Positions 1-23,479 of a stretch of DNA of 64,000 nucleotides are shown piece by piece. A program made the translations under genes and the position numbers. Each line of letters begins with the position of its first letter. The first letter of the stretch is position 1. The DNA lies in the NCBI GenBank assembly GCA_030603495.1, contig JAUVXR010000001.1, forward strand, positions 62,001 to 126,000. The letters run 5' to 3'. A model generated the notes under the pieces. That model worked only from the letters and a program-made list of their open reading frames with translations. It did no database searches and was not told the DNA's origin. The DNA is from a bacterium (GTDB lineage: Bacteria; Armatimonadota; Zipacnadia; Zipacnadales; Zipacnadaceae).

Positions 1-2
1 CC

Positions 3-104
3 CGCATCTACGCCGATTTGGGCGCCTGGACAGTGGACGAAATCCGCCAGCGCCAAGGCCTCTCGCCGTTAGTAGAAGCTGGCCACGAGGTCGAGGCTGA
101 GTAG
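3..104 (+). CDS. Phage portal protein, C-terminal end only (partial)
   Basis: An open frame enters from the left edge and stops with TAG at 102-104. Its 33 residues include WTVDEIRQRQGLSPL, which resembles the conserved end of phage portal proteins (consensus roughly T-x-NE-x-R-x-x-x-GLPPL). Portal proteins form the dodecameric DNA gate at one head vertex, next to the protease and capsid genes. That is the gene order seen here. The stop overlaps the GTG start of the next gene (TAGTG), so the two are probably translationally coupled. The call rests on about 15 informative residues plus context. Confidence 0.55.
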   Translation, partial: RIYADLGAWTVDEIRQRQGLSPLVEAGHEVEAE

Positions 105-1168
105 TGAAGGCACTGCTCGTCGGCCAACTTGGCCTGGGTGGTGCAGAGACACAGATCGAAGCGACGGCAAGACAATTAAGACAGCTTGGCCTGAGGATTG
201 ATGTCACGGCTGAAGACCGGCCAGACTGTCAGGGCTATGACGTGCTGCATGTCTTCAATGCGCCGGATCCGAGGCTGACGCTACGACGGATCGAGGCAGG
301 CAAACGCCGAGGCGTGCCGGTTGCGCTCTCGACGATCTACTGGAGCGGGTACGAGCTGTATATGCAGTGGGCGAAACGCGGCTGGCGCACTGCCGAAGAG
401 CAGGCGTTTCACTGGAACGAGCGCAAGCAGCGGCTCAGGCCCGTATTCGCCGATGCGGATATGTGGCTGCCGAATTCGCACGCCGAATACGGAATGCTGG
501 TCGCCGACTTCGGCGTCAGCCGGCTGTACCGGGCGGTGCCCAATGCGGTAGATGCTGGCTTTGCACAGCTTGCTGAGCCGGTAGGACAGGCGTCTCGCCT
601 GTCCATCTGCCCGACAGGCGGGACGCCTGTCGTACCGAAACTCAACCCTCCCGAATCCGACGTCCTGATGGTCGGGCGCTGGGAACTGCGCAAGAATCAG
701 TTGGGGCTGCTGGAGGCGCTGGCGGATACTGATTACCAAATCCTAATAATCGGTGGCGAGAACAGCCACGACCGCGAGCACAATCAGGCGGCGCACAGCC
801 TGGCCCAGCAGCGTGGCAATGTGCAGATACTGCCGGCGACGACGGACCGCGTCTTCCTGGCCAACTTGATGAGGAATACCAAGGTGCTGGCCCAGCCTAG
901 CTTCTACGAGACGCCCGGGCTGGCGGCACTGGAGGCCGCAGCATGCGGCGCAGCAGTCGTAGTATCTGAGCGAGGCTGCACGCGGGAGTACTTCGGCGAC
1001 GAGGCGTATTACTGCGATCCAATAGATGCTGACAGCATTCGTCGAGCCGTTGAGGCAGCCTTGACCAGCCGCCCATCCGCAGCGCTCAAAGAGCGCATCA
1101 GGCGAGAGTTTACCTGGCGGCGAGCCGCAGAAGAGACAAGACTAGCCTACGAACGACTGCTGGCATGA
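104..1168 (+). CDS. Glycosyltransferase, family 4-like (GT-B fold), embedded in phage head module
   Basis: The 354-residue protein begins with a Rossmann start typical of GT4 enzymes (VGQLGLGGAETQ, residues 6-17). It carries an EX7E pair (E269 in YETPGL and E277) in the C-terminal nucleotide-sugar domain. GT4 enzymes move a sugar from a nucleotide donor to an acceptor; donor and acceptor cannot be read here. The GTG start at 104 overlaps the portal stop. Residues about 160-179, in the linker between the two Rossmann domains, are encoded by a 60-base copy of repeat family A and so are a recent in-frame insertion. The gene sits between portal and protease, where phages normally have no glycosyltransferase, so it may be cargo or may modify particle proteins. 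Confidence 0.85.
   Translation: MKALLVGQLGLGGAETQIEATARQLRQLGLRIDVTAEDRPDCQGYDVLHVFNAPDPRLTLRRIEAGKRRGVPVALSTIYWSGYELYMQWAKRGWRTAEEQAFHWNERKQRLRPVFADADMWLPNSHAEYGMLVADFGVSRLYRAVPNAVDAGFAQLAEPVGQASRLSICPTGGTPVVPKLNPPESDVLMVGRWELRKNQLGLLEALADTDYQILIIGGENSHDREHNQAAHSLAQQRGNVQILPATTDRVFLANLMRNTKVLAQPSFYETPGLAALEAAACGAAVVVSERGCTREYFGDEAYYCDPIDADSIRRAVEAALTSRPSAALKERIRREFTWRRAAEETRLAYERLLA
581..640 (+). repeat. Family A dyad repeat inserted in frame in a glycosyltransferase
   Basis: Two tandem palindromic halves occur: GACAGGCGTCTCGCCTGTC and GACAGGCGGGACGCCTGTC, followed by GTACCGAAA. The copy is exactly 60 bases, so it adds 20 codons without shifting the frame. Related copies occur at 9401, 10245, 12999, 26753, 31091 and 33350. 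Confidence 0.9.
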
Positions 1169-1271
1169 GTATCGCTACATCTCGGAGGTCGGCCAGGGCG
1201 CAGACGATTTCCTCGGCCACGCACCCGAATACCTCGGCGGCGAGGCGGATGTGTGGTGGGCGATTAGATAG
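1146..1271 (+). pseudogene. Possible coding remnant with no start codon
   Basis: In frame 3, from just after a stop at 1143-1145 to TAG at 1269-1271, the DNA reads as protein-like sequence rich in G, D, E and aromatic residues (for example YISEVGQGADDFLGHAPEY and VWWAIR). It has GC-rich third positions but no usable start codon. It overlaps the last codons of the glycosyltransferase. It may be the end of a gene disrupted when the glycosyltransferase arrived. No family was recognised. Confidence 0.25.
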
Positions 1272-1289
1272 ACCACGGACAATCAAAGG

Positions 1290-1312
1290 GGCACAGGCTG
1301 GAAGCCTGTGCC
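1290..1312. repeat. Family D dyad repeat
   Basis: A perfect 10-base inverted repeat (GGCACAGGCT / AGCCTGTGCC) with a 3-base loop lies between the glycosyltransferase and the protease gene. A related hairpin with the same flanking CCACC lies at 26222-26250 in the chromosomal part. Confidence 0.8.
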
Positions 1313-1334
1313 ACCGGTAAGGCATTCCCATTCC

Positions 1335-1367
1335 GAGGCCGCAGATCATTCTGCGGCCTCTTTGTTT
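1335..1367 (+). terminator. Rho-independent terminator
   Basis: A perfect 11-base stem (GAGGCCGCAGA / TCTGCGGCCTC, loop TCAT) is followed by TTTGTTT. It should end transcription from the portal-glycosyltransferase side before the protease gene. The capsid genes must then have their own promoter or depend on read-through or antitermination. Confidence 0.8.
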
Positions 1368-1384
1368 GCCAAGGAGGTGAGCAG

Positions 1385-2257
1385 GTGAGTGAGGTGAGTC
1401 AGGAGAGTAAGTTCGCGGTGACGCTGCCGCTGGTTAAGGCCTGGCAGGACGAGCAGGGGCAGATGTGGGTCGAAGGGGTGGCCTCCTCGACCAGCCTGGA
1501 CCGCCAGCGCGAGCGCATGACCAGAAAGGCCATCGCCAAGATGCAGCAGTACCAGGGCATTGATCTCTTGCCCAGCCATCAGGCCGGGCCCCTGGAGGAG
1601 TTAGGGACGGTCGAGCAGTGCTGGGCGGATAACGACAGCTTCCGGCTGAAGGCGCGATTGGATGAGAGCAGCCCGCAGGCTATGCGGCTGTTCAAGCGCC
1701 TGGCCGAGGGCCGCCAGTACAGCCTGAGCGTGGGCGGGCGTGTGACGGGGGCGTACTGGGACTTTGACCCGGAGGCCGGCGCGCGCATCCGGCATATTGA
1801 CGACGTCACGCTGGATCACGTGGCGGTATGCCGGCCGCAGCAGGCAGCCAATCCCGATACCTACCTGGCGGCGCTGGCCAAGGCAGCCGAGCTGGTCACA
1901 GAAGATAGCCCGCCGCAAGCTGCCGACGACAACGAGGACCTCATCCGCCGACTGGGGCAGACGGCGCTGGAGGCCTGCCGACGGCTGTGGCCCTTCGGCA
2001 AGAGCACGACGGAAGCCGAGGTCAGGGCCGAACCGCAGGAGCCCGGAGAGCTGGAGACCCTGCGCGCGGAAGTGACCATGCTGCGCAAACAGCGAGCGGA
2101 AATGACTGTCAAGACGGCGCCCGCCGCCCCACAGCCAGACAGTGGATCGGCGGACCGAGACGTAACCGAACCGGAACCGGGCCGGCGGCAATCGCTGGTT
2201 GCCGAGCAGCGCCCGGGGACAGATAAGCAACGCAACTTCTGGAAAGGAGTGCTTTAG
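1385..2257 (+). CDS. Phage prohead maturation protease with scaffold-like C-terminus
   Basis: The N-terminal 165 residues match HK97/XkdF-type capsid proteases: VEGVASSTSLDRQ, then the probable catalytic His in LLPSHQAG and the probable catalytic Ser in YSLSVGG. Such proteases trim scaffold and capsid subunits during head maturation. The last 120 residues are charged and partly coiled-coil (ELETLRAEVTMLRKQ), as in scaffold domains fused to the protease. The GTG start at 1385 has a near-perfect Shine-Dalgarno (AAGGAGGTGA at 1371-1380). The stop immediately precedes the capsid ATG. Confidence 0.8.
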   Translation: MSEVSQESKFAVTLPLVKAWQDEQGQMWVEGVASSTSLDRQRERMTRKAIAKMQQYQGIDLLPSHQAGPLEELGTVEQCWADNDSFRLKARLDESSPQAMRLFKRLAEGRQYSLSVGGRVTGAYWDFDPEAGARIRHIDDVTLDHVAVCRPQQAANPDTYLAALAKAAELVTEDSPPQAADDNEDLIRRLGQTALEACRRLWPFGKSTTEAEVRAEPQEPGELETLRAEVTMLRKQRAEMTVKTAPAAPQPDSGSADRDVTEPEPGRRQSLVAEQRPGTDKQRNFWKGVL

Positions 2258-3202
2258 ATGGGAAACGACGAGATGCTGGAAAAGGCAATTGACACCTCCG
2301 ACATCGCCGACGGCGGCTTGCTGAATACCCAGCAGGCAAACAAGTACATCGAGATGACGGTAGACAACTCCGTCATGCTCAAAGAGGCGCGCGTGGTGCG
2401 GATGCGCGGGCCGGCGCAGGAACTGGACAAGATCGCCACGACCGGGCGCGTCAGCCAGCTCAAGACCGAGGGCGTAGCCCCCGAGACGCTGGCCGAGCCG
2501 GCCTTCGATAAGGTGAACCTCAGCTCCGTGGAGATCATCACCCCCTTTGAGATCACCTTCGAGGCGCTGGAAGACACCATCGAGCGGGGTAACTTCGAGG
2601 ATACGGTAATCTCGGTAATGGCCAAGCAGACCGCTACCGACCTCGAGGAGCTCGCGGCGCTGGGCGATGATGAGTCGGGCGATACCTATCTCGCCGGTCT
2701 AGACGGCTGGCGCGTGCTGGCCGATGACGGCCACATCGTGGACTTCGAGGGCGCGACGCTTGATCGCGCCGGCCTGTCGGCGATGTACCGGGCCCTGCCA
2801 GATGCGTACAAGCGCAATCACAGCGATCTGCGCTACTACTTCGCGCCCGCCGCAGTCCAGGACTGGAACGACACCTTCGCCGACCGGCCCACCGCCGCCG
2901 GCGATGTCGCCCTCACGGGCGGCGTGGCGCCTCCGTATATGGGCGTGCCGCTGGTGTCGGTGCCGGTAATCCCGACCAACCTGGAAGGGATCTCGGGCTA
3001 CGCGAGCGGCCCGAAGCTCAGCTTCGGTCTGCTCACACTGCGCGATAACCTGATCTTCGGCATCCAGCGCCAGGTCAGGATTGACCGCGACAAGGACATC
3101 CTGCGCGGAGTGAATATCTACGTCATCTCCACGCGGATCGCTGTAGCCTATGAAGAGAGCGACGCCGTGGTAGTCGGCATCAATCTGGGTCTGACTGCTT
3201 AA
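2258..3202 (+). CDS. Major capsid protein, HK97-fold family
   Basis: The 314-residue protein follows the protease directly, as major capsid genes do. It has the mixed alpha/beta make-up of HK97-type capsid proteins: an acidic N-arm with LLNTQQANKYIEM, a region ending in FEITFEALEDTIERGNFED that suits the E-loop and spine helix, and a beta-rich C-terminus with VPLVSVPVIP. No separate decoration gene precedes it. Its ATG lies directly after the protease stop with AAAGGAG upstream. The capsid identity is inferred from context plus general resemblance, not from a single diagnostic motif. Confidence 0.75.
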   Translation: MGNDEMLEKAIDTSDIADGGLLNTQQANKYIEMTVDNSVMLKEARVVRMRGPAQELDKIATTGRVSQLKTEGVAPETLAEPAFDKVNLSSVEIITPFEITFEALEDTIERGNFEDTVISVMAKQTATDLEELAALGDDESGDTYLAGLDGWRVLADDGHIVDFEGATLDRAGLSAMYRALPDAYKRNHSDLRYYFAPAAVQDWNDTFADRPTAAGDVALTGGVAPPYMGVPLVSVPVIPTNLEGISGYASGPKLSFGLLTLRDNLIFGIQRQVRIDRDKDILRGVNIYVISTRIAVAYEESDAVVVGINLGLTA

Positions 3203-3223
3203 GCGAACGGCTGACGGATGTTA

Positions 3224-3280
3224 CGGGGAACCCCTCTTTTCCAAAAGAGCGGTTCCCCGCACCCCTTCCGCAGAAAATTC
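3224..3280 (+). repeat. Family B dyad repeat
   Basis: Copy of GCGGGGAACCCC..CTTTT..AAAAGAG..GGTTCCCC followed by GCACCCCTTCCGC, directly downstream of the capsid gene. The outer arms pair, the inner CTTTT/AAAAG pairs, and the asymmetric tail ends in CCGCAGAAAATT. Confidence 0.9.
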
Positions 3281-3295
3281 TGCCAGCAAACAGCA

Positions 3296-3328
3296 GGCGG
3301 ATGTTGGTACCGCAACATTCGTCCCTAC
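3296..3328. repeat. Family E dyad repeat
   Basis: Imperfect inverted repeat AGGCGGATGTTG / CAACATTCGTCCCTA, related to the copies at 19139 and 19216. It lies just upstream of the GT9 start. Confidence 0.65.
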
Positions 3329-3352
3329 GGACGGCCACAGGACAGTTTCAGG

Positions 3353-4477
3353 ATGATAGCAACCTTGCGACGGGGGCGCAGCCTGCGCCTGCACCGAGCC
3401 GGGGTGACATTGCACCGCGATGAGCCTCAACAGTTGACTCGAGTTACGGACTATGTCTACGCCGCAGCAGCGCACAAACAGCGCCTGGAACTGGAACCGA
3501 CGCCGGTTATGATGGCAATGCAGCGTGAAGGCCAGCACCGGCGCGTAGCCCCATGGCAAGTCGGAGATATGAAGCGAAGCGGCTGGAAGATACAGCCGCT
3601 GGAAAAGGCGTTGCGTCCGGGCGCACAGGTTCTGGTGATTCGCAATATGGGCCTGGGCGACGTGCTGATGCTCACTCCCGCGTTACGTGCGCTGCACGAG
3701 CAGCGGCGCGTGCGGGTGCAGCTAGCGACCTACGCCTGTTACCTGCCACTGCTGTGGGGGCTGGACTGGATTGAAGCGACCTACGCGCTGGGCACCGACT
3801 ACCACGTTGAGCGGTTTGACGCGGTAGTAGACCTGAACTGGGCGGTGGAAAGCGGCAAGCAGGTCGAACAGCGCCCTCGCCAGGATATCTTCGCCGAACG
3901 ACTAGGGGTAAGCCTGCGCCAGCGGTGCCCTTTCTATCAAGTAGCCAGAAGCGAACGGCAGTGGGCGCAGCGACAGCTCGTGCCGTGGCGCCGCCCTATA
4001 GTGGGCATACAGCTCCACGCAAGCTGCGCGCAACGGTCCTACCCGGCTAGGCATATCTTACGTCTGACCGAACTGCTCCAGGCCAAGGGCTGCACCGTGG
4101 CCTTCTACGGCGAGCGATGGAGTGAGAAACTGCCCAGCGGGGTGATTGATCTGATCGGCGCTGCTAGCCTGCGCCAAGCCGCCGCGCTGATCGAACAGAT
4201 GGCGGCGATGGTCTGCCCGGACAGCGGCCTGCTGCACTTGGCCGTGGCGGTAGGGACGCCCACGGTAGGCCTATTCGGTCCGATTCCGCCGGAGTTACGC
4301 ACCGTCGGCTACCCGCAGTGCACAACCGTCAGCGTACCCGGCGCATGTCCGGACCAGCCGTGTTTCGACGCCGGGGCCAGCAGCTGCCGGCGCTGCCGGT
4401 GCATGGGAGCCATTAAGCCCGAGGCAGTAGTAGCGGCGGCCCAGATGCTGGTAGCGGAGCGGGCACAGCGGCCTTGA
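3353..4477 (+). CDS. Glycosyltransferase family 9 (heptosyltransferase-like)
   Basis: The 374-residue protein has the GT9 signature VIRNMGLGDVLMLTPALRAL near residues 94-113 and the donor-site motif CPDSGLLHLA near residues 288-297, ahead of GTPTVGLFGP. GT9 enzymes transfer heptose or related sugars onto LPS cores. The C-terminus is Cys-rich (CPDQPCFDAGASSCRRCRC), which may bind metal. I chose ATG 3353 because the longer frame from 3218 would translate repeats of families B and E. The gene lies between the capsid gene and a giant surface protein, so a role in decorating the particle is attractive but inferred. Confidence 0.85.
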   Translation: MIATLRRGRSLRLHRAGVTLHRDEPQQLTRVTDYVYAAAAHKQRLELEPTPVMMAMQREGQHRRVAPWQVGDMKRSGWKIQPLEKALRPGAQVLVIRNMGLGDVLMLTPALRALHEQRRVRVQLATYACYLPLLWGLDWIEATYALGTDYHVERFDAVVDLNWAVESGKQVEQRPRQDIFAERLGVSLRQRCPFYQVARSERQWAQRQLVPWRRPIVGIQLHASCAQRSYPARHILRLTELLQAKGCTVAFYGERWSEKLPSGVIDLIGAASLRQAAALIEQMAAMVCPDSGLLHLAVAVGTPTVGLFGPIPPELRTVGYPQCTTVSVPGACPDQPCFDAGASSCRRCRCMGAIKPEAVVAAAQMLVAERAQRP

Positions 4478-4485
4478 ACTGCTGT

Positions 4486-4512
4486 GGGAGGGCCACCCGT
4501 GGCGCGACCACA
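4486..4512. repeat. Family F dyad repeat
   Basis: GTGGGAGGGCCACCCGTGG-type sequence, related to copies at 19310 and 33432. The rest of the 115-base gap shows only a Shine-Dalgarno for the next gene. Confidence 0.5.
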
Positions 4513-4592
4513 CTTGCGGCAGTTATGCCCGGCAGGGGACCAGATATCGTTGCTACGGTACGGCACAGCATACAATAGGAGTGTTGAACACT

Positions 4593-7500
4593 ATGCACAA
4601 GCGGCATTTGTGGATAGACGTACGGGGAGCCAGTCTGTACTGGCCGGCTGCCGGCAACGTGGACGTATCGGCCACGGGAAAGGGCACGATAGCCTACTGG
4701 GCTAAAGCACCCACCCATTTCCAGTACCGCCGCGAGCAGTACTTCTGGCGCGCCTGGGTGAACGACAACAACTACGTGGGCAACCGTGGCCGGGGTATCC
4801 AAGTTGTCAGCGATGGCACCCCCTATTACTCCGGCACGATCAGTGACAATATTGCCGAGGAGGACCGCGGTCAACCCGAGTTCCACGTGTTCACTTGGGA
4901 TTTCGAGGCAGGGGTCATAAAGGCCTACTACAACGACGCCGTTGCGGCACACGACCCGGTCACCGGCGTACCCGCACCGTACGGCAGCCCCGTGGGCATC
5001 TATCTGGGGGCCGATTACGCTGCGGACTGGGCCAGCGTGCCCGTCTGGACCCAGTCCGCCCGCGATCAGTTGTTCTACGTGCTGGGCATCTGGGACGAGG
5101 TGATGTCGGAGACGCAGATTTCGGCGCTCTACCAGAAGGGCCACCGCACTTACATCTGCCAGCCCGCCGATGGCCCTGGCAATCTCACCTTCCGGCTGAA
5201 GTTCGATAACGGTCTAGCGGCGGACATCGCTGAAGGCGAGGGCGACTGGGCGCAGGACGAGGGCACGAGCACGGACCGGTTTTGCCTGATCGAAGACGGT
5301 ATCCGGACATTGGGTACGGCGATATATCCGATAGGAATACCCCGCCACGATGCCAGCGATGACGACCGTAAGCCGCTGCACGCGATCTGTCCGGTCTTCT
5401 ACGACACTAGCAGCAGGCGAGCCCACACCACTGATACCAACGAAACCAACTATGCCCGGCTGGTGCTGGACGGATTGGACCAGAAAAAGGGCGGCGCGGG
5501 GTACAAGCCCGTGCCCAACCCGGGGACCTATCGGCAATTAATCCACGTTCCCGACAACGGGGTAACCCCTGCGGGCTACGAGATGGGGATCGGCCCTATC
5601 GCCTATATCCACCATCCGTTCGCCGGCTCCGGGGTCTTCGACTGGGGGAGTGGTCGCAGTTTCGAGGTGGTTAGTGACGGCGCCAACTCTCCCAGCAGCT
5701 TCAAGACCAACCTGGGCGACTTCGCCGATGACTACTGGAACGGTGCGGTACTGACCTTCCTGAGCGGGAACTGCACTGGCCGACGGCTCTTCGTGACCGA
5801 TTGGGACAACACCACCAAGTTCATAACAGTTGAAAGCGCTCTTCCCGCGACGCCTGATGCCGATAGCATTGCGGTAGTCAACCCCTACTCGCGGATATGC
5901 GGCCAGAACGACGATCAGACGTTCCCCCAGTATTGTATCGAGGCCAGTCTCTGGGCGCGCCACGACAGCGCGCGGCATTTCGTGCTGCTCGAATGGCAAG
6001 TGGCGCCGCTGACCACGCCAACTCTCCGCTACGAAAAGGGGCGAACGGTCACAGTGCCCGGATGTCCTCAGGCGCAAGCGGGCCGCGGCTCCAACTACGG
6101 GACGTGGTACTGGGACGACGGCTACTACGATCAGCCGGGGGGCACTAACCTGGAGATCTGGCTGGAGAAGGTGGAGATCGGTGGCCCCCAGACTTACCAG
6201 ATATTGCGGCGCGATGCCCGCAAGCACGGCCCGGCCTTGGCCGACAACTTTATGCTAATGACCCGCGACAGCGACGGTAACCCCGGAGAGTCGGTGAAGG
6301 TCTGGCACCAGCAGAAGATGGCCTGGCACAAGCAACGGCCAACCAAGATCACCGACTACCAGACCGTCACCGCCGATCTCCAGGCACCAGGGACGTGGCG
6401 GCATACCACGGGCGCACCTATACCGATTGACTACGACGAAGAAAACGAGGTGGTTACCGCCGCCCTCTCGGGCGTGGACTCTGGCGGCGTCACGCGCCTG
6501 GGCTACATCCAGGGCCATTGGGATGAACAGAGTGGGCGGATTGCCTGGGCAGATGAGACACCGCCGCCGGGCAAGTCCAACCCGGTGCTGGAGACCTCGA
6601 CCCTGCGCTTCGAACGGGAGTCGGACTCACCTGAGTCTGGCGTGTGGGTTGGCGGCGTCATCGAGGCGATTGACGGCACCTGGTCGTTGATCTACGGGGG
6701 CGGGACCGATGCTGCTGACGAGACCGGGATGTATGTGCTCCACGGCGCGCCGGACCGCTGGTCCTTTGATCACGCCAGCCAGTTCGCTGGCGAGATCGTT
6801 ACCAAGGGTGGCAAGGGCACCGATCTGCTCATGCCGTGGGGTAGCGGCATCCAGCCGTGGGGCAACGCCCACATCTACGGACCAGTGCTGAACAACCCCT
6901 ATGCCCAGGCCACCGATCGGCAATACCTGGCATTCATGAGTGCCAAGACCATCTGCCACAACGGCACGGTCTGGAACGACACCCTGCGGCCAGTAGTAGC
7001 CTTCGCAGGTACCGATATCAAGTCGCTGGCCCCGCTGCCCTACAACCGGGAGATGTCGCCGGCGCCAGCACCACAGGCCCACGCTATCAGCGGCGACATC
7101 CTGGGCCAGGAGGACTGCATCGGCCTGCTCATTGAGTACACCCCGGGCTTTACCTGCGGTATCGGCCTGTATACCTCAGAAGAGGCTCTGCACTTCCAGG
7201 AGCTATGGCCGGCCAACGCCACCCTGGACGCGTTCATTCCCCAGGGCGAGCTGTCCGGCGAAGGCACGCGCTTGAGTCCCTGCCGGTCCTTCCGGCTGGG
7301 CGACAAGCGGATCTACTACTACTCATGGGGCGAATACCGCAACTTTGCCTGGTGTCGCTACAACGGGGAGACCTGGTACAGCCTGGCCGACGATGAAACT
7401 GACAGCTACCTGGAAACCTCGATCCTGGAAAGGCCCGAGGGCGGCTGGGGCGAGCTCTACTTCAATCTCGAGCTTAACGACGGGGATATCGAGGTGGAGG

Positions 7501-8674: not shown

Positions 8675-8707
8675 AATAGCAGCGGCGAGTGGCTATCATG
8701 AAACGGG

Positions 8708-8729
8708 GGGAGCGACATTCTTGTCGCGA
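8708..8729. repeat. Family C dyad repeat, degenerate
   Basis: GCGACATTCTTGTCGC, an inverted repeat with the same core as the chromosomal copies at 29876, 33468 and 35930. It occupies the 145-base gap between connector genes. Confidence 0.6.
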
Positions 8730-8819
8730 CGACCCAGTGGATACTGAACGGCAGCACGGCAACGACTTACACGCACGAAGCCCGCGGCTACGCTGCGCCA
8801 TATCCAGGGAGCTTTGGCT

Positions 8820-9365: not shown

Positions 9366-9400
9366 GCAATCGCCCCCAGTGTCCGGCGTACTATCCTCAG

Positions 9401-9453
9401 CAGGACAGGCCTCGCGTCCGTCCCCTTCGACAGGCGAGACGCCTGTCGTACCG
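9401..9453 (+). repeat. Family A dyad repeat
   Basis: CAGGACAGGC..CCTTCGACAGGCGAGACGCCTGTCGTACCG; the second half keeps a perfect palindrome around GACAGGCGAGACGCCTGTC. It fills most of the gap between two phage genes. Confidence 0.85.
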
Positions 9454-9480
9454 CTGCTCCCTCAGGAGGCTAGTTGATAA

Positions 9481-10158: not shown

Positions 10159-10186
10159 GACTGTGGCGAGCGGGTGGCGGCCTCGC

Positions 10187-10216
10187 CCTCACCCCTCTCC
10201 CTGCAGAAGAGGGGAC
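10187..10216. repeat. CCTCACCCCT..AGAGGGG-type dyad repeat
   Basis: CCCTCACCCCTCTCCCTGC followed by AGAAGAGGGGA forms an inverted repeat (CCCTCTC/GAAGAGGGG). A related stretch occurs at 28499-28535 in the chromosomal part, again right before a gene. Confidence 0.5.
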
Positions 10217-11367: not shown

Positions 11368-11373
11368 ACCTGC

Positions 11374-16238: not shown

Positions 16239-16241
16239 CCG

Positions 16242-16544
16242 ATGGTGCAGAGCTTATCGTATCCCATAGCTTTCGAGCACAACGGGCTGGTCTATTTGGT
16301 CGGCTACCGCGGTGGAGCACAGTATATCCGGCGCAGCGCCGATGGAGGCACAACGTGGCTGGCGTTCCGCGATGGGGTGACCGAGAGGCTGGTGGCCGCG
16401 CCCTCGGACGCAGATCGGGTGGCGTTGGTGAAGATGGATACACAGGGCTGCCGGCTGGTCGTGGGCGTGCCTAACTACCCCAACATTGATATCTACATCT
16501 CCGCCGACGACGGCGAGACCTGGGAGCTGGAGGCGTCAATATAA
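16242..16544 (+). CDS. Small Asp-box (BNR) protein
   Basis: 100 residues with two Asp-box motifs (SADGGTTW and SADDGETW) in strand-turn-strand settings, like blades of a sialidase-type beta-propeller. The preceding protein ends in a third Asp-box 3 bases upstream of this start. The two may associate to complete one propeller, or may descend from one split gene. GGGAGGAGG lies before the ATG. The stop overlaps the next ATG (TAATG). Confidence 0.6.
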   Translation: MVQSLSYPIAFEHNGLVYLVGYRGGAQYIRRSADGGTTWLAFRDGVTERLVAAPSDADRVALVKMDTQGCRLVVGVPNYPNIDIYISADDGETWELEASI

Positions 16545-18838
16545 TGGCACAGCGCGTATATCCGATCGCCAAGGTGGAGCTTCATGAGCCTGGGCGCCAA
16601 TACCGCGCGACCTACGACGGCTTCGGGCAGCACGACGTGCTCGCCGACCTGATCCACAACGGCCGCGTCACTGTCCAGTCCACCGACCTGGGCGCGCTGG
16701 GCCGTGCCGGACTCCAGGTGCCTTCGGCGATGCTAGTGGACCACCCCAAGGTCAATGCCGTCCTCGCCCGGCCCTTCTTAGACACCAGCCAGGCGATCGG
16801 TCTGGGGCACTTCACCACCGAAGGGGGGGCGTGGGTAGCCCTGCCCAACCACGGACTCGAAGGCGAGGTGCAGCTCTTCCAATATGATGGCACCGCCAAC
16901 GAAACGACGGGGGCGATAAGCAACTTCACGCTGCCAACTAACCCGGTCTTTGCCCTGTCGCTGTATCGGACCGACCCTCCCCCGGATCACGACTGGAGCC
17001 AGGCACCGCCGCATACCGAGATTCACTTCGGTGTCGCCGAGACCGATGAGTGGGCGCTGTGCCTGCCCTACGGCGCGCCGATGTTCGTGATGCGCCGCCA
17101 GGGCGGGGTCTGGTACAAGGCGGCCGACTCCGAGAAGTCCGTGAAGGTGCCGACGCTGGAAGGCTTCAGCGCCGGGCAGCGGCTACTGCTGTGGCTGGCA
17201 CTGTGGCGCGGGAAGATTGTGATCTCGACCGATGCCTTCGCCCAGGATATCTGGGTCTACGAGGTGCCCGGCTGGGAGCTACGTGTCCGCTGCGGGAAGA
17301 TCTCAGTCCTGCACAACGCCGGTCAGTTTATGTTCTCGTTCTTCCCGATAACTATGCCCGCCGCTGTGCTGGACAGTGAGCCGATCGAGACCGGCTACGC
17401 CACCCAGAACAGCACGGGCGAACTGGGGCTTAACTACCGGCAGCTCGCGGTCGTAAACGACTCCGGCATACCGCTACGCGAGGTGCAGGTGACCGATACA
17501 ACCGACACGCGCGAGGATCTCACCACCACCCAGCGGGCCTGGCAGGCGGCGATCGAGCCTTACTTGCACGCGCAGGAGGCCGTAGGGATTGATCCGGAGA
17601 CCGACCAGGCGGTTGATTTCCAGACGATGGTCTCCCCCCAGCTCTTCAGCGTGGGAATCGGGCAGTACCCGCAGGTGGACGAGCTCGGGACGCTACAGAA
17701 GGCGGATATCGCCGGTCACGTTGAGGCCACCGAGGGCGACCACTCCGACCGACTGCGCGGCGTGCGCTATCGCCTGGCGCTGGATAACCAGCTTGGCCAG
17801 TATGCCGACTTAGAAGAGTACCGCCGAGTCAACGTGCAGCTCGGCTGGAAGATGTCGGACGACTCCAATCAGCTTACCTCCACAATCTCCGGATATCTGG
17901 TCGCGCCGCCGCCGACGGTCTTTGGCGGCGGGGATACGGAGTTGAAGGCAACAGTACTGGACGGAATTGTCCGCCTGCGCGACGAGAAGTGCGACGGCCG
18001 CGCGCCGATCTTCGATAACTGGGCCGTAACAGATGCTTTTCACTGGGTGCTGGACCGCTGCGGGATACCGCGCAGCCAGCAGTCCCTGGAAGACACCGGT
18101 ATGCGGCTGAGCATGGGTGAGCCGGAAGAGCCGTTGTGGGCGGTCGAAGCAGGCCGCTCGTGGCTGGAATTACTCGAGGAAGTGGCCCGGTACGACCACG
18201 GGGCAGCGATCTTCTTCGATGCCGAGGGGAATTTCGTGAAGGCCTGCCCGCACTGCCGACAGGCCCGCACCGCCGCCAACGTCACGCAGCACGACGGGAC
18301 GGTGACCGGCGCGTGTGGCTCGACGGTATCGTGGTATCTGTACACGCGGGCAGCCGCAGCCCCTGATCCCGCCGAGCCAGGCGAGATCCTGGCCCTGCGC
18401 AAACCGCGGCTGAGCCTGTCAGCGCGTGATTATGTCAACTATGTTGCCGTCTGCGGGCTGGGCAAGGATGGCCGGCCGGTGCGCTCGGTGGTTTACGATC
18501 CGGCGTCACTGTACGACCCGAATTCAGACCAGTTCGTGGGCTGGCGCAAGATGGAAGTCCAGGCCCTGCCCAACTACACCACTCAGGCCGAGGTCAACCG
18601 CCTCGCCCAGGAGATCTTCGCCGAGCGGTCGCGCCGCCCGGAGTTCATCCATGTCCTGACGCCGCTGGAGCCACGAATGACCATCGGCCAGGTCCTGGCC
18701 GTACGCGGCGCAGAGCAAGTGGGTGCCGGTGGGCAGCTCTACCGTATCGTCGCCCTCCATCATAAGGTCCAGCGGCAGCCGGATCGCCTGGCTGTCACGA
18801 GCATCAAAGCCCGCTGGCTGGGTGAGGAGGAAACCTAA
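16544..18838 (+). CDS. Tail hub / tail-associated protein (gpD/gp27-like), with Cys motif
   Basis: 764 residues. The first 240 are beta-rich with HFGVAETDEW-type strands. The C-terminal 350 resemble hub proteins: ISGYLVAPPPTVFGGGDTELKATVLDG, WLELLEEVARYDHGAAIFF and DYVNYVAVCGLGKDGRPVRS, then MTIGQVLAVRG. These match late-control-D/Tal-type domains that build the trimeric hub at the tail tip. A zinc-ribbon-like C568-x2-C571-x19-C591 lies inside the hub domain; the fourth ligand is not obvious. Start overlaps the previous stop. Confidence 0.65.
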   Translation: MAQRVYPIAKVELHEPGRQYRATYDGFGQHDVLADLIHNGRVTVQSTDLGALGRAGLQVPSAMLVDHPKVNAVLARPFLDTSQAIGLGHFTTEGGAWVALPNHGLEGEVQLFQYDGTANETTGAISNFTLPTNPVFALSLYRTDPPPDHDWSQAPPHTEIHFGVAETDEWALCLPYGAPMFVMRRQGGVWYKAADSEKSVKVPTLEGFSAGQRLLLWLALWRGKIVISTDAFAQDIWVYEVPGWELRVRCGKISVLHNAGQFMFSFFPITMPAAVLDSEPIETGYATQNSTGELGLNYRQLAVVNDSGIPLREVQVTDTTDTREDLTTTQRAWQAAIEPYLHAQEAVGIDPETDQAVDFQTMVSPQLFSVGIGQYPQVDELGTLQKADIAGHVEATEGDHSDRLRGVRYRLALDNQLGQYADLEEYRRVNVQLGWKMSDDSNQLTSTISGYLVAPPPTVFGGGDTELKATVLDGIVRLRDEKCDGRAPIFDNWAVTDAFHWVLDRCGIPRSQQSLEDTGMRLSMGEPEEPLWAVEAGRSWLELLEEVARYDHGAAIFFDAEGNFVKACPHCRQARTAANVTQHDGTVTGACGSTVSWYLYTRAAAAPDPAEPGEILALRKPRLSLSARDYVNYVAVCGLGKDGRPVRSVVYDPASLYDPNSDQFVGWRKMEVQALPNYTTQAEVNRLAQEIFAERSRRPEFIHVLTPLEPRMTIGQVLAVRGAEQVGAGGQLYRIVALHHKVQRQPDRLAVTSIKARWLGEEET

Positions 18839-18841
18839 ACA

Positions 18842-19063
18842 ATGTCTGATGTCGCAGCAATTCGTGAACAGATTGATCGGCGCATCCGGCCCGGCCAGGT
18901 GGCCACGGCTACCGTGCCCACCCGGACACCCGGTTCGCATCTGATCGGCTCAACCCGTACCACCGCCGCTAACCGGTACGACTGGGGCGAGACGGAGAAC
19001 TACCGCTACGCGCTGTACGGACGCAGTAGGTATGGAGCGGGGAGATACCTCGAAGTGGCCTAG
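18842..19063 (+). CDS. Small tail-region protein, unknown
   Basis: 73 residues, ATG 4 bases after the hub stop, with GAGGAGG upstream. It is basic and Tyr/Gly/Arg-rich near the end (YRYALYGRSRYGAGRYLEVA). No family was recognised. Tight coupling to the hub gene suggests a structural accessory. Confidence 0.55.
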   Translation: MSDVAAIREQIDRRIRPGQVATATVPTRTPGSHLIGSTRTTAANRYDWGETENYRYALYGRSRYGAGRYLEVA

Positions 19064-19138
19064 AAGAAATCGGATGCAGGATACGGGAGACAGGATAACG
19101 GCAAGCGGCGGGAATGTGGCAATGACTTGTTCAATGTA

Positions 19139-19168
19139 GGGGCGGAAGTTCGTCAGAACTTCCGCCCG
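19139..19168. repeat. Family E dyad repeat
   Basis: Perfect 12-base stem GGGCGGAAGTTC / GAACTTCCGCCC with loop GTCA. It lies in a 293-base gap with no gene. Confidence 0.8.
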
Positions 19169-19215
19169 CCGTTGCTGCACGTCGCTGCATGCAAACGAAT
19201 CCTACCCGCTACAAC

Positions 19216-19255
19216 GGGCGGATGTTTCGCAAGCAACGCTCAACATTCGCCCCTA
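19216..19255. repeat. Family E dyad repeat, imperfect
   Basis: GGGCGGATGTTTCGC / AACATTCGCCCCTA in the same gap. Together with the neighbouring copies this gap holds three repeats (19139, 19216, 19310) and a Shine-Dalgarno. Confidence 0.65.
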
Positions 19256-19309
19256 CACACGGCTGCGGCAAACGGCAATCGGGGCATACGCCTCCGCTAA
19301 CGCTACGCC

Positions 19310-19332
19310 GTACAGGAGGGTGCTCCTCCCAC
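19310..19332. repeat. Family F dyad repeat
   Basis: GTACAGGAGGGTGCTCCTCCCAC, a GGAGGGTGCTCCTCC inverted repeat like the copies at 4486 and 33432. Confidence 0.55.
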
Positions 19333-19356
19333 AGCCAGATTGACGGAGGTTAGTAT

Positions 19357-20061
19357 ATGCCCACACAGACTGAACATTACGGGCTGGCGGCGGATGTCGT
19401 CACCGACGACTTCGTCCAGCCCGATCACCAAAACCGGGTTGCCGAGACGCTAGACCGGATTGTCGGCAACGTCGTCAAGCAACTGCTTTCCGCCGGCGTC
19501 TATAGCGGCTGGCTGATCCAGGAAGACAAGAGCGTCGCCGCCGGCGCAGGCCTGGTACAGGGCTGCTGGTGCGGCACGGCCACCAGCCAGGAGATCACCG
19601 GCCTGCAAAACGACGCGGTCAATTATGTCTTCGCCGTGGCCAACAGCCAATCGGCCCCGGACGGGGCAGTTGACTTCAGCGCGCAACTGACTGCCGAAGC
19701 TCCCAGCGGGAGTGTCTATCTGGGCAGCCTCGAACTCGATGCCGAGGGCGATGTGCTGGTGGTTGACAATGCCACTGACGCCGACCGGGGCTGCTTTGCG
19801 CTGAAGACGGACACGGTGAGCGGCAGTGGCGAGGTTGAAGCGGTGCCCGGCGGCGCGCAGGTCAGCTTCGTAGTGGACCACACCGAGGTCGCGAGCTTCC
19901 TGGTGCCGGGAGCGATTGAGTTCGAGGTCGAAGGTGACGACTTTGAGGTCGAGCTACGCAAGACCTACCAGAAAGCGCAGTTCGAGGTCATGGCCACCAA
20001 CCAGAGCAGCTACCCCCGCGACCTGAGCTATTCCTGGCAGCGCTGGGGCATCATCGAGTGA
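19357..20061 (+). CDS. Putative tail fibre or baseplate-periphery protein
   Basis: 234 residues with GGAGG about 10 bases before ATG. The N-terminal helix (NRVAETLDRIVGNVVKQLLSAG) is followed by a beta-rich region of alternating strands (SAQLTAEAPSGSVYLGSLELDAEGDVLV), as in fibre or needle subunits. No enzymatic motif was seen. It ends at GTGA overlapping the next glycosyltransferase, so the pair are coupled and this could be the substrate of that enzyme (inference). Confidence 0.45.
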   Translation: MPTQTEHYGLAADVVTDDFVQPDHQNRVAETLDRIVGNVVKQLLSAGVYSGWLIQEDKSVAAGAGLVQGCWCGTATSQEITGLQNDAVNYVFAVANSQSAPDGAVDFSAQLTAEAPSGSVYLGSLELDAEGDVLVVDNATDADRGCFALKTDTVSGSGEVEAVPGGAQVSFVVDHTEVASFLVPGAIEFEVEGDDFEVELRKTYQKAQFEVMATNQSSYPRDLSYSWQRWGIIE

Positions 20062-21113
20062 ACGCGGCGCAGCGGAACGTGGCTGTGCGCCATCGCTTCG
20101 CGCTACACGGCCAGCTGCCCCAGACTCAGCAGATAACAGCAATCCTGCCGCCGCCTCCCGAACCGCTGTGTCGCCCGGAGGAGCTGGCCGCTGCGCATAA
20201 GCTGGTGGTGCGGCGCGACGCCGGACTGGGCGACTGCCTGATGATCCTGCCGACGCTGGGCGCAATCCGCCAGCACTTTCCCCACCTGAAGATCATTTTC
20301 CAAGCACCGGCGGCGTATACCAAGCTGCTCGCCGGGTTTGGGGAGGTAGATAAGGCGGTAGCACTCGACGAACTGACCGAGCTCGGGGCCGGGTCCGATG
20401 TCGTCCACGCTGACCTGAGCAATTATATGGAGCGGCATCCGCAGGCATGGCTGGTGCCCCGTATTGACCTGGCCGGTACGGCCTTCGGGATAGCGCCGGT
20501 GCCCCACACCGCCTCCTACCAGCCGCCGCCAGAAATTCAGCGCGAAGCACAGGCGTGGTTGAAGGAACATGAGTGCAGGAAGCGGGCTCGGGTCGGTATT
20601 GCCCTGCGGGGCATCTACGGCCACCGCAGTTGGCTGGTACCGTATGTCTTCGAGCTAGCCCGACGGCTGGCCGCACAGAACTGGGAGGTGCTCATATTCG
20701 ACGCCGACCCCCACGCCCAGCAGTGTCCAGGGACCGATGATTTCGATGGCCCTGGAGCAGTAGCCTGCGCATACGGGCTGGAGCTACCCGTGGTCGCAGC
20801 ACTGCTGGCAAGCTGTGACGCGGCGATAGTACCCGACACCGGCCTGCTGCACCTGGCGGCGTGCACTGGGACACCCTTTGTGGCGATCTTCGGCGCTGTG
20901 CCGCCGGAGCTGCGGCTCAACTACTACCAGAACTACCGCTGCCTGACCGTGCAGGGCCGCGTGCCCTGCGTGCCCTGCTGCGAGGGACCCCAGCACATCC
21001 GTTGCCGCTACGAGTGCCTCTGGGCGATTACGCCGGAGGAAGTAGAGTTGGCGTTACACGAGTTGTTGACGAAGACGAGCGCAGAGCATCGGCAGATCCA
21101 AATCACAGGATGA
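20058..21113 (+). CDS. Glycosyltransferase family 9, second copy in the phage cluster
   Basis: 351 residues with the GT9 motifs RRDAGLGDCLMILPTLGAI (residues 51-69) and PDTGLLHLAACTGTPFVAIF (from about residue 259). Like the enzyme at 3353, its C-terminus has clustered cysteines (CVPCCEG...CRYEC). The two share general architecture but are clearly diverged. The GTG start overlaps the fibre-like gene stop. Heptosyltransferase-type chemistry is likely; acceptor unknown. Confidence 0.85.
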   Translation: MNAAQRNVAVRHRFALHGQLPQTQQITAILPPPPEPLCRPEELAAAHKLVVRRDAGLGDCLMILPTLGAIRQHFPHLKIIFQAPAAYTKLLAGFGEVDKAVALDELTELGAGSDVVHADLSNYMERHPQAWLVPRIDLAGTAFGIAPVPHTASYQPPPEIQREAQAWLKEHECRKRARVGIALRGIYGHRSWLVPYVFELARRLAAQNWEVLIFDADPHAQQCPGTDDFDGPGAVACAYGLELPVVAALLASCDAAIVPDTGLLHLAACTGTPFVAIFGAVPPELRLNYYQNYRCLTVQGRVPCVPCCEGPQHIRCRYECLWAITPEEVELALHELLTKTSAEHRQIQITG

Positions 21114-21120
21114 ACTGACT

Positions 21121-21453
21121 ATGACGGGCGCTTATCATTGGCTGGCAGTGTTGCTGGGGAACTCGCCGACAGGAGAATATGTGCTATGCGGGCTGGCCGG
21201 GCTACTGGGGGCGCTGGTCAACGCCACCCTCGAAGGCCGGCCCCTGGTCCTGCCCCGCATGAAGGGTAACGAGCTGCACCTGGGCTTCATCGGCAACCTG
21301 ATTATCTGCGTGACGGTCGCGTTCATAGTGGATGGCAGCTTCCAGATGGCCTTCTTCGCCGCGCTCACCGGCACATACATCCTGCGCCACCTTAAAGCCA
21401 AGCTCGAACGGGCCTTCGCGGAGGAGATTGATAGTCTTAACTCGGAGGAATAA
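21121..21453 (+). CDS. Small membrane protein (DUF4257-like), possible holin-region protein
   Basis: 110 residues with about three membrane segments (GEYVLCGLAGLLGALV, LGFIGNLIICVTVAFIV, MAFFAALTGTYILR) and an acidic tail. The pattern, including the RPLVLPRMKG loop between the first two segments, resembles the DUF4257 family. It sits at the start of a lysis module of small membrane genes. Function unknown. Confidence 0.55.
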   Translation: MTGAYHWLAVLLGNSPTGEYVLCGLAGLLGALVNATLEGRPLVLPRMKGNELHLGFIGNLIICVTVAFIVDGSFQMAFFAALTGTYILRHLKAKLERAFAEEIDSLNSEE

Positions 21454-21456
21454 TAG

Positions 21457-21822
21457 ATGATACCTGCCACAATTGTAGTCGGCGTGGTAGACGCCGGCTT
21501 TATTGTCTGCTTGCTCGCAATATGGTGCGACCTGTGCCGGCGCGGCGTCAACCGCTCCGCGCAGATCACTCTGGCGCTACTGGGAACGGCTCGCCTGGGA
21601 GAACTGGTCGAGCGCTGGCCTGACGGCCTGGTGCCGGCCAGCCCCGCCAACTGGCTGCTGTGGACCGCCTTCAGCTTTGTGTTCCTCTACACCATCTACC
21701 AGCTAGGCCGGTTCATCGAAGCGGCCCGGTATTGCACCGCCGCATACCGGCCACAACGGCAGGCGCTGAAGGTGCTGCAGTTCGCGAGCCGCCCGGGCCG
21801 GCCGCGGCCGCGGGAATTGTGA
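21457..21822 (+). CDS. Small membrane protein, unknown (lysis module)
   Basis: 121 residues with two or three hydrophobic segments (TIVVGVVDAGFIVCLLAIW near the start, WLLWTAFSFVFLYTIYQL near residue 70) and a basic tail. A GGAGGAATAAT Shine-Dalgarno lies before the ATG. Not recognised. It could be an accessory holin. Confidence 0.5.
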   Translation: MIPATIVVGVVDAGFIVCLLAIWCDLCRRGVNRSAQITLALLGTARLGELVERWPDGLVPASPANWLLWTAFSFVFLYTIYQLGRFIEAARYCTAAYRPQRQALKVLQFASRPGRPRPREL

Positions 21823-21832
21823 AGAACGACCC

Positions 21833-21897
21833 TTGCGGGGAACCCGCTTTTTGAAAAAAAAGCCGGTTCCCCACAGCCCCTCCGGCAAAAACTTTCA
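21833..21897 (+). repeat. Family B dyad repeat
   Basis: TTGCGGGGAACCCGCTTTTTG..AAAAAGCCGGTTCCCC then CCCCTCCGGCAAAAACTTTC. It closely matches the 'ccgctttttgaaaaaagccgg' subtype at 31012 and 33190. Confidence 0.95.
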
Positions 21898-22026
21898 AAG
21901 TGGTCGTGGCAGACAGCGTATGGGAGAATGAGCCGCGCCACTACCCCAGAAGGGCTCGACCAACCAGAGATTCATACGGCCAAAACACCATGAGCGACAA
22001 CGACCTAAACTAAGGAGGTTATCGCT

Positions 22027-22323
22027 ATGCTCGAGGCATTGTCATCTTCGCTCAGAAATGTGCTGTTGCCAGCCATCAGCACCATCGTCGTCGGCTTCAT
22101 TTGTCAGTTAGTACGCCAGTACATCCAGCGTATCAAAGACGAACAGCTCCGTGAGTTCCTGGAGCGGCTGGTCAACGCCGCCGAGCAGATCTATGGCCCG
22201 GGCGAAGGCGCCGCCAAATACGAGTATGTCGTACGCCAGGCGCAGCAACGCGGCTACCGGATAAGCCGGGCTGATGTCGAGGCCGCAGTCTACAACATTA
22301 ACTCAGCAAAAGGATGTGAGTAA
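22027..22323 (+). CDS. Phage holin, LLH family
   Basis: 98 residues: one N-terminal membrane segment (LLPAISTIVVGFICQLV), then a charged helical domain with LVNAAEQIYGPGEGAAKYEYV and a C-terminal helix ending DVEAAVYNINSA. This is the LLH-type holin (Phage_holin_6_1) pattern. It would perforate the inner membrane to release or activate the endolysin two genes downstream. AAGGAGG precedes the ATG. Confidence 0.85.
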   Translation: MLEALSSSLRNVLLPAISTIVVGFICQLVRQYIQRIKDEQLREFLERLVNAAEQIYGPGEGAAKYEYVVRQAQQRGYRISRADVEAAVYNINSAKGCE

Positions 22324-22326
22324 ACG

Positions 22327-22686
22327 ATGACCAAGTACCTGGCTACAGTGACGCTTATCCTGGCGCTGTGCGCCGCGGGCTGGGCGGATAACTTTCTCGA
22401 AGAGGCCGGCGAGGCGATCACTGAGACCGTGGAACTGTCCCTGCTCAGCGGAACGATCGGCTGGGGCGCTGGCGCGTACTGGCCGCTCTATGAAGTTGAG
22501 CAGATCGAGACGACCCTCGGCCCGTTCATTGCCTTCGGCGATCAGCTCATCGCTGCCGGTCTGGGCGCGAAGTTCGCTGTTGAAATCCCTATGTTGGACA
22601 ACTATGTTGACTTTGTGGCTGCCGGCGGTGCGTACAAGCACGATGACCTGACCTTTGAGGTCTGGGTCGGCAAGACTATCAAGTGA
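22327..22686 (+). CDS. Small exported protein in the lysis module
   Basis: 119 residues with a signal peptide (MTKYLATVTLILALCAAGWA, cleavage near residue 20) and a mature part of amphipathic strands (VEIPMLDNYVDFVAAG, DLTFEVWVGKTIK). It starts 4 bases after the holin stop. A small outer-membrane or periplasmic role in lysis, functionally like a spanin, is possible, but no spanin motif (lipobox or coiled coil) is seen. Confidence 0.5.
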   Translation: MTKYLATVTLILALCAAGWADNFLEEAGEAITETVELSLLSGTIGWGAGAYWPLYEVEQIETTLGPFIAFGDQLIAAGLGAKFAVEIPMLDNYVDFVAAGGAYKHDDLTFEVWVGKTIK

Positions 22687-22768
22687 GCCAACACAACGGC
22701 CAACGATGGTAGGCAGGAGGGATGACTTCCTGCCACCGGCTCGGAACCGAAGGCGCGAGGTACTGCAC

Positions 22769-23479
22769 ATGCCAACTGAACAACAACTATCCCTCCCGGA
22801 GTGCCAGCAACATATCCGGGAAGTGCCGGTCAGCCGGGCCATTCGCTCGGTGATCGTCCACCATACCTGGCGGCCTACCGCCTCCAACTACCGCGGTCTG
22901 AGCACTGTGCGCGCCGTGCGCCAGTATCACATGAAGCAGCGCGGCTGGTCGGACAATGGCTATCACATTATGATCGGCCCCAGCGGTGACATCTTCCTGT
23001 GCCGGCCCATAAGCCGCGCCGGCGCGCACTGTCGCGGCCAGAACCAGGACTCCATCGGCCTATCCTACATCGCAAACTTCGACAGCGAAGACCCCGCGGA
23101 CTATCCAGGAACCGAGATTGGTCAGCAGGTCGTCGCCGCCCTGCTCCAGCGCTTCTCACTCACCCCCGACGATATCCATTTTCACCGTGAATACGCCAAC
23201 AAGACCTGCCCGGGCCGGAATCTGCACCTGGACGAATACCGCCATCAGGTCGAACTGCGTACGTCCGAACAAGCCGGCGACATCAAGGTCGTCCTGCTCC
23301 CGGGCAGCCAGGTCATCGCCTGCCGCCCGCGACTGGAAGACGGCACCACCCGCGTGGACCTGCGCCCGCTGGCCACCGCCCTGGACTGCGAAGTCTACGA
23401 CCACCTCGCCGACCAGGGGAAAGTCTACCTGCGGAAGAAGGCAAAGACGCTCCGCGATTTGCAGCATCTCTCCGAGTAG
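22769..23479 (+). CDS. Endolysin: N-acetylmuramoyl-L-alanine amidase with C-terminal stalk domain
   Basis: 236 residues. The Amidase_2/PGRP domain (20-155) has zinc ligands in VIVHHTW (H31/H32), H139 in IHFHREY and C147 in TCPGRN, and Tyr65 in NGYHIMIG. It cuts the amide bond between MurNAc and the stem peptide. Residues 172-223 form a copper-amine-oxidase N-terminal-like stalk domain (VVLLPGSQVIACRP...LATALDCEVY), as in host exported proteins in this window. ATG 22769 is preferred over the longer frame from 22655, which runs through the upstream gene's end. It is the last phage gene. Confidence 0.85.
   Translation: MPTEQQLSLPECQQHIREVPVSRAIRSVIVHHTWRPTASNYRGLSTVRAVRQYHMKQRGWSDNGYHIMIGPSGDIFLCRPISRAGAHCRGQNQDSIGLSYIANFDSEDPADYPGTEIGQQVVAALLQRFSLTPDDIHFHREYANKTCPGRNLHLDEYRHQVELRTSEQAGDIKVVLLPGSQVIACRPRLEDGTTRVDLRPLATALDCEVYDHLADQGKVYLRKKAKTLRDLQHLSE

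Follow-up and report, generated by a model that had tools for sequence, protein, structure and literature searches.

Phage head, tail and lysis genes in a bacterial chromosome may serve a virus or the host that carries them, and this is the question raised by the window, i.e. the whole 64,000-nt stretch of an Armatimonadota genome analysed here (G000:C20:62001-126000; w marks positions within it). The window holds most of a phage-type gene cluster of about 27 kb, from a candidate for the small terminase subunit (TerS) to an amidase. The genes for packaging and for the particle form a conserved operon under constraint that has no means of transmitting itself, and its domestication is supported by every test run. 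We consider it rather likely, with a probability of about 0.74, that it is an order-wide gene transfer agent (GTA) from an independently domesticated phage.

The source contig is 275,943 bases long, from a genome of 2.67 Mb that is 93.5% complete, and host genes flank the cluster on both sides within this contig. The cluster starts 3.4 kb left of the window; the large terminase subunit (TerL), the TerS candidate and nearly the whole portal gene lie there. The gene order is TerS candidate, TerL, portal, GT4, protease, HK97 capsid, GT9, lectin-like protein, adaptor, neck proteins, tail tube, chaperones, a short open reading frame (ORF), BNR-like protein, hub, small tail proteins, GT9, holin and amidase. 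All structural genes are on the plus strand, with three glycosyltransferases (GT4, GT9 and GT9) interleaved. A first-pass annotation had described ordered structural and lysis genes on one strand, and the family matches confirm this except for the portal, which ends at w104, the stretch w104-1168 being a GT4 gene. It was also correct in that no integrase, repressor or replication gene is found among the cluster genes, including the leftward extension to C20:58.6 kb.

Distribution, descent and selection

The portal was found in 24 of the 41 genomes of the order (14 of the 19 high-quality ones), the capsid in 25 of 101 relatives, and the tail tube in 27 of the 291 genomes of the phylum, all within the class of the window. 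When the marker tables are combined, at least one clear marker is present in about 29 of the order's 41 genomes. The copy number is essentially one, barring split matches and a weak second tube match in the class-level genome G041. The cluster order is common to three other families of the order and a class-level relative, being kept in G004, G009, G038, G021, G026, G024, G019, G023 and G042 (in the latter as far as the contig reaches). Every long contig examined keeps it, with a lone small gene (t100) displaced in G021. The major capsid protein (MCP) is 57-96% identical to its relatives within the class. Among the clusters, GT4 and GT9 genes at these positions occur in the family of the window only.

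A concatenated tree of six cluster proteins shares 15 of 21 splits with the rpoB tree of the same 24 genomes, Mantel r 0.71, and none of 2000 permutations reached this value. The family of the window, f5 and f6 are monophyletic in both trees. Within the family, the cluster core does not evolve faster than rpoB (0.144 vs 0.242 changes per site between G000 and G001).

Searching the sister genomes at the same locus, as proposed in the first-pass annotation, shows that the flanks are common within genus and family. The RNase P RNA gene, rnpB, lies left of the cluster on the opposite strand in G000 (C20:55833-56339, identified by Rfam), G004 and G006. The right flank, with Usp, M48 and Fpg genes, is common to G000 and G004 in the same order with few insertions. 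Five genomes of f5 have a common left flank. In f5 and f6 the right end of the cluster adjoins yidC-jag, and in f1 and f3 yidC is located on other contigs. The yidC-jag block by the cluster (L056 11068-13386 in G038; also G035, G024 and G019) has opposite orientations in two families, which indicates an inversion beside the cluster.

The ratio of non-synonymous to synonymous substitutions (dN/dS, pairwise Nei-Gojobori, three species pairs) is about 0.04-0.28 per cluster gene, i.e. the purifying selection that had been suggested for checking is present, and flanking host genes have the same range. The lowest values are those of the capsid and portal (MCP 0.04-0.07); for one gene, GT9b, the value between G000 and G001 is uninformative, as paralogues were compared. 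Among 250 complete gene slots, 245 are unflagged and 5 flagged, two of the latter being a shared two-gene form of the protease. The split protease of G021 and G026 was considered as decay and rejected, because both genomes carry the same two-gene form.

The intergenic repeats do resemble host copies, as the first reading of the window had it. They are of two kinds, a 60-nt hairpin and repetitive extragenic palindromic (REP) elements, and both are found genome-wide. The copies in the cluster are:

w3221-3280: 60-nt hairpin repeat, host-type, in a cluster spacer
w11306-11365: 60-nt hairpin repeat, 97% identical to the copy at w26151-26210
w21833-21892: hairpin repeat, host-type, in a cluster spacer
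w9428-9462, about w10242-10308 and about w13017-13051: REP elements, palindromic

The hairpin at w26151-26210 has ten matching genome sites, w11306 included, and the REP palindrome GGACAGGCGNNNCGCCTGTC is found at 70 sites (at most 2 mismatches), compared with 4 for the reversed control. The genome carries two Y1 transposase genes, a kind known for moving REPs. Half of the cluster spacers (7 of 14) match another spacer, vs 10 of 60 host spacers of the same stretch. In six of eight genomes examined, the cluster spacers contain the host's own lineage-specific repeats; in G004, G009, G026, G024 and G021 these differ in sequence and match other spacers of the respective host. Therefore, the cluster spacers behave like any host spacer. 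G038 and G019 have no repeats in the cluster spacers nor in other host spacers. One REP lies in frame within the GT4 gene (about w579-646), and the G004 homologue is about 19 residues shorter.

The domestication that was suggested for the locus is thus supported by order-wide presence, congruence with the host tree, shared flanks, purifying selection, absence of mobility genes and host repeats in the spacers.

Gene content and related phages

The genes of the cluster, with the evidence for each assignment (E-values for family matches), are as follows.

L012:624-1226, left of the window: TerS candidate, 200 aa, by position and size only, family search without a match
L012:1108-2709, left of the window: TerL, 533 aa, phrog_2 E 2.4e-20
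C20:60863-62104 (L012:2863-4104; 3' end w1-104), plus: portal, PF04860 E 6.6e-41
w104-1168, plus: GT4 glycosyltransferase, PF00534 E 4.5e-21, in part of the family only
w1385-2257, plus: head maturation protease, phrog_80 E 9e-6
w2258-3202, plus: HK97-fold MCP, PF05065 E 3.1e-9, phrog_1623 E 4e-80
w3353-4477, plus: GT9 glycosyltransferase (GT9a), PF01075 E 2.6e-23, the post-capsid slot being found also in the 108-kb phage G291
w4593-8024, plus: 1143-aa protein with a C-terminal rhamnosidase-type Ig domain, PF25788 E 5.9e-19, PDB 6i60 E 1.5e-25
w8018-8674, plus: head-tail adaptor (neck), AlphaFold model with predicted local distance difference test (pLDDT) 86.6, Foldseek matches
w8820-9365, plus: neck protein, likely stopper, by position, homologue in the equivalent slot of G291 E 6e-13
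w9481-10158, plus: neck/tail protein, likely tail terminator, by position, G291 homologue E 1e-8
w10373-11281, plus: tail tube protein, PF18906 E 3.9e-8
w11518-11979, plus: probable tail assembly chaperone (G-like), by position, in G023 a single frame with the next two ORFs
w12021-12350, plus: probable tail assembly chaperone (T-like, t109), G291 homologue E 1.6e-9
w12343-12912, plus: short ORF of low complexity (189 aa) at the place where G291 encodes its tape measure, evolves fast, C terminus conserved
w13080-16238, plus: 1052-aa baseplate or fibre protein, segments similar to carboxypeptidase regulatory domains and to BNR, CarboxypepD_reg in 7 of 11 members, best E 5e-9
w16242-16544, plus: 100-aa protein (t100), Asp-box-like motifs in the sequence
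w16544-18838, plus: tail hub (gp27/gp44-like) with an inserted lectin-like domain, AlphaFold pLDDT 67.8 (modest), Foldseek and VIA-align
w18842-19063, plus: 73-aa conserved protein (t73)
w19357-20061, plus: 234-aa conserved tail-tip protein (t234), G291 homologue E 3.4e-31
w20058-21113, plus: GT9 glycosyltransferase (GT9b), PF01075 E 4.8e-12, slot shared with G291
w21121-21453, plus: membrane protein, holin-like, hydrophobic segment, gene kept in 7 relatives
w21457-21822, plus: membrane protein of the lysis module, hydrophobic segment
w22027-22323, plus: holin, phrog_6918 E 4.9e-8
w22327-22686, plus: 119-aa protein with a signal-like N terminus, conserved in G004
w22769-23479, plus: N-acetylmuramoyl-L-alanine amidase (endolysin), final gene of the cluster, PF01510 (Amidase_2) E 7.3e-16

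The Walker A, Walker B and acidic nuclease residues are invariant across 13 TerL sequences. The first gene call beside TerL was a divergent 118-aa gene with dN/dS 1.1-1.3, and it was replaced by the 200-aa plus-strand ORF listed as the TerS candidate. The GT4 gene is seen, besides the window, only in G001, G004, G006 and G011, and the amidase is conserved in G004, G009, G038, G023 and G035. A laminin-G/ConA-like domain (Laminin_G_3) is present in 12 of the 19 family members of the 1143-aa protein, a probable glycan-binding decoration. The adaptor model matches neck proteins of Mycofy1, T5 and the GTA of alphaproteobacteria, RcGTA (6toa), with Foldseek E-values from 1.7e-6 to 4.2e-4. The hub model matches baseplate hubs, and its insertion at about residues 73-366 resembles CBM66 and lectins. 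Sequence searches of PDB with profiles of the hub, the BNR protein and TerL gave no matches. In G023 (L133, a 359-aa ORF) both chaperone-like ORFs and the short ORF of the tape measure slot form one continuous frame, hinting at frameshift-linked expression in the other genomes.

When phages are included in the portal and MCP trees, the clusters all fall into a single clade, with support 100/98 and 100/99, respectively; the phages, RcGTA not among them, have long branches, and their own order is unsure. The best phage matches to the MCP are siphophages at 33-36% identity, with Bacillus phage PBP180 at 33%, and no complete phage above about 36% capsid identity was found. Among 50,697 phage records (tblastn) there are no relatives of the hub. 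When IMG/VR was searched with capsid and hub profiles, it returned mostly short cluster fragments. Several of these run into host genes at their ends, and one equals the contig G042:C410 of a metagenome-assembled genome (MAG). Public virus collections file host loci of this kind as viruses.

The single real phage from these profile searches is G291 (3300033141_002573, 108.5 kb). Its genes from the portal to the second GT9 match the cluster profiles in conserved order: portal (1e-69), protease (7e-23), MCP (2e-35), GT9 (3e-53), adaptor (3e-42), two neck proteins (6e-13 and 1e-8), tube (6e-47), the chaperone t109 (2e-9), BNR-like protein, hub (2e-73), t73 (2e-4), t234 (3e-31) and GT9 (6e-48). 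In contrast to the clusters, G291 is a large phage with 420- and 84-aa genes that the clusters lack, and its portal and MCP are on long separate branches. Since its GT9 genes are in matching slots, the window's family has probably retained the GT9 slots from the ancestor, with loss in the other families. The existence of a phage with this module order makes the steps of domestication visible, i.e. the loss of the replication genes, the loss of the long tape measure and the fate of the glycosyltransferases.

G291 has a helical protein of 1150 aa in the tape measure slot, whereas the clusters have a low-complexity ORF of about 160-330 residues. This ORF was recognised by its position, a PWW motif (in the family), a similar C terminus and, in G000, a start overlapping the preceding gene. 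We regard it, with low confidence, as a reduced or replaced tape measure. The 1052-aa protein had been a candidate for the tape measure because of its position and size; its composition and the BNR- and carboxypeptidase-like matches speak against this.

Proposed function of the particle and rival explanations

A GTA is defined by proteins derived from caudoviricetes, an endogenised genome and mostly vertical inheritance, and in addition by particles with mostly random host DNA, a genome exceeding the head and delivery to cells (PMC9662315). Caudoviricete ancestry is found here for the portal, MCP, protease, TerL, tube, adaptor and hub. The cluster is endogenised, with host genes on both sides, neighbours common to related species and no integrase of its own, and it co-diversifies with rpoB (15 of 21 splits, Mantel r 0.71) with one exception, G035/G040. 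As far as genes can tell, the cluster appears GTA-like by three of the six points, and the other three concern packaged DNA, head capacity and delivery.

We propose that a single domestication of a phage structural operon took place no later than in the common ancestor of the order and at least one class-level relative, and that inheritance would have been mainly vertical afterwards. Under host control a few cells would express the operon, TerS and TerL would pack host DNA into HK97-type heads, and the producer cell would be lysed by the holin and amidase. The short-tailed particle would bind surface glycans via the lectin-bearing hub and the laminin-G/Ig protein and deliver host DNA to kin, with uptake possibly through ComEC. 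ComEC is present in the genome, which would make DNA uptake possible and no more. The phage-type glycosyltransferases kept in the window's family probably modify the particle or the surface of the cell. For an independent, order-wide GTA that came from a large phage, with the tape measure turned into a short disordered protein, a minimal tail and glycosyltransferases decorating the particle or its receptor, we see even odds.

A close known counterpart is RcGTA (Rhodogtaviriformidae). Its operon likewise encodes terminase, portal, protease, HK97 capsid, adaptor, tube and hub, lacks genes for replication and integration, and has descended vertically with its hosts (PMC9662315). The RcGTA tape measure is also short, about 216 residues (PMC7296036). 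However, RcGTA belongs to another phylum, the nearest sequence relatives of the cluster are other phages, and the cluster differs in its in-operon glycosyltransferases and lysis genes, the lectin insertion in the hub and the low-complexity ORF in the tape measure slot. Genetically defined GTAs are formally recognised in three groups, two from Alphaproteobacteria and one from Brachyspira (PMC9662315), and a recent addition outside Alphaproteobacteria is the GTA-like element of Faecalibacterium, FpGTA (PMC12946183), which is podovirus-like and from Bacillota, while the cluster has a tail tube and hub. The origin in Armatimonadota would be independent of those in alphaproteobacteria and spirochaetes. 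The host is close to Candidatus Zipacnadia, a lineage whose description from MAGs of marine sediment mentions neither phages nor gene transfer (PMC10290634), and no earlier report of a GTA in Armatimonadota was found in the searchable literature, which covers few subscription journals and preprints. If true, a separate domestication maintained across an order would mean that bacteria repeatedly convert phages into DNA-exchange machinery that selection maintains for long.

The cluster could instead encode a domesticated killer particle like PBSX of Bacillus, which packs host DNA and acts as a bacteriocin on competitors without gene transfer. PBSX-like phages are defective and form DNA-packing particles. 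PBP180, a recorded defective phage, is among the nearest capsid relatives, the match being seen for the capsid alone; the lectin-bearing hub and the laminin-G protein would confer target specificity, and a lysis cassette is in place. The terminase, portal and capsid are, however, among the most conserved genes, beyond the needs of a killing tail, and no immunity gene was recognised, which makes this explanation unlikely in our judgement. The first-pass annotation had left the choice between GTA-like and tailocin-like. GTA-like fits, and tailocin-like is disfavoured by the conservation of the capsid, the portal and a terminase whose catalytic motifs are intact, i.e. head and packaging genes are present and strongly constrained. 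The domesticated head and tail might also serve a purpose unrelated to DNA transfer, for example to deliver proteins or to signal at the surface, and the terminase would then have been retained for another reason. The operon's three glycosyltransferases and two lectin-like proteins speak for this; the invariant catalytic residues in both terminase domains argue for DNA packaging, and we give this the smallest chance of all.

Only slightly better are the chances of a temperate prophage family closely tracking its hosts, with integration and replication genes elsewhere or recently lost. A related 108-kb phage exists, and a tyrosine integrase (G000 C20:54739-55665) is 3.0 kb from the TerS candidate. 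This integrase, the sole one found nearby when the left end was mapped as the first-pass annotation advised, lies beyond rnpB in a lower-GC region adjoining the 3' end of that gene. No equivalent of it adjoins the cluster in G004 or G006, and no integrase was seen in the conserved part of any relative examined. Of the gene flanking the cluster in G004, G000 retains a stub of 36 residues. The integrase region reads as a separate island at rnpB, which looks like an integration hotspot. Further, right flanks are common to species with rpoB differing by 23%, the cluster tree is congruent with rpoB, and no complete phage comes closer than the capsid identity given above. The conserved part holds no repressor, replication genes or att sites either. 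A search for the two outcomes named beforehand as speaking against domestication, an integrase with att sites at the cluster and absence of the cluster from relatives, found neither.

Several observations weigh against a domesticated GTA. No clear marker is seen in about 12 of the order's 41 genomes, among them the good genome G016 (96% complete), so the cluster is dispensable, and its immediate neighbours mostly differ across families. Core genes are broken in some relatives, namely the MCP in G009, the 1143-aa protein in G038 and the BNR protein in G042, and the portal has stops in G012 and G027; in these, error and decay are indistinguishable. The clusters contain no recognisable full-length tape measure, leaving the tail function uncertain, and no regulator of the cluster was identified. 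All hosts are uncultured MAGs, and the cluster is known from genes alone. Finally, the trees conflict for G035 and G040, MAGs from different genera that share 11 kb at 99.7% identity (L135 = G035:C38; L132/L165 = G040:C113). The simplest account is probably a mis-binned contig, with horizontal transfer as the alternative.

The rnpB region and other loci

Partial copies of rnpB are found near the gene and elsewhere; the loci of the gene and its copies are C20:55833-56377 (L011:15833-16377), L045:1375-1480, L047:2145-2262 and G000:C28:19981-20076. The repeats of about 106 bp by the integrase were considered as an integron-like cassette array, and this was rejected as Rfam identifies the RNase P RNA gene, the short repeats being its partial copies. 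A gene for an HSP90/MutL-type ATPase is located between rnpB and the cluster. Left of rnpB, C20:38734-54000 (L010/L011) is a stretch of lower GC that resembles a defence or mobile island. It encodes an SMC/Rad50-like ATPase of 1254 aa and proteins with phosphoribosyltransferase domains.

In G047, from another family of the phylum, homologues of the portal, capsid and adaptor (25-27% identity) lie between host genes (L148 8219-13055). Two small genes occupy the protease slot there, and tail genes were not recognised. This small group is possibly a second, reduced domesticated head.

In the IMG/VR sequence 3300037692_000675 (57 kb; L183 1-17431, L185 1-15431), the hub gene of a related cluster is split after residue ~602 by about 44 kb of another phage. 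The insert seems to start with TG and end with CA, TTTGCGAA-like motifs are repeated near its ends, and it is flanked by the 5-base repeat GCGGG, as with Mu-like transposable phages.

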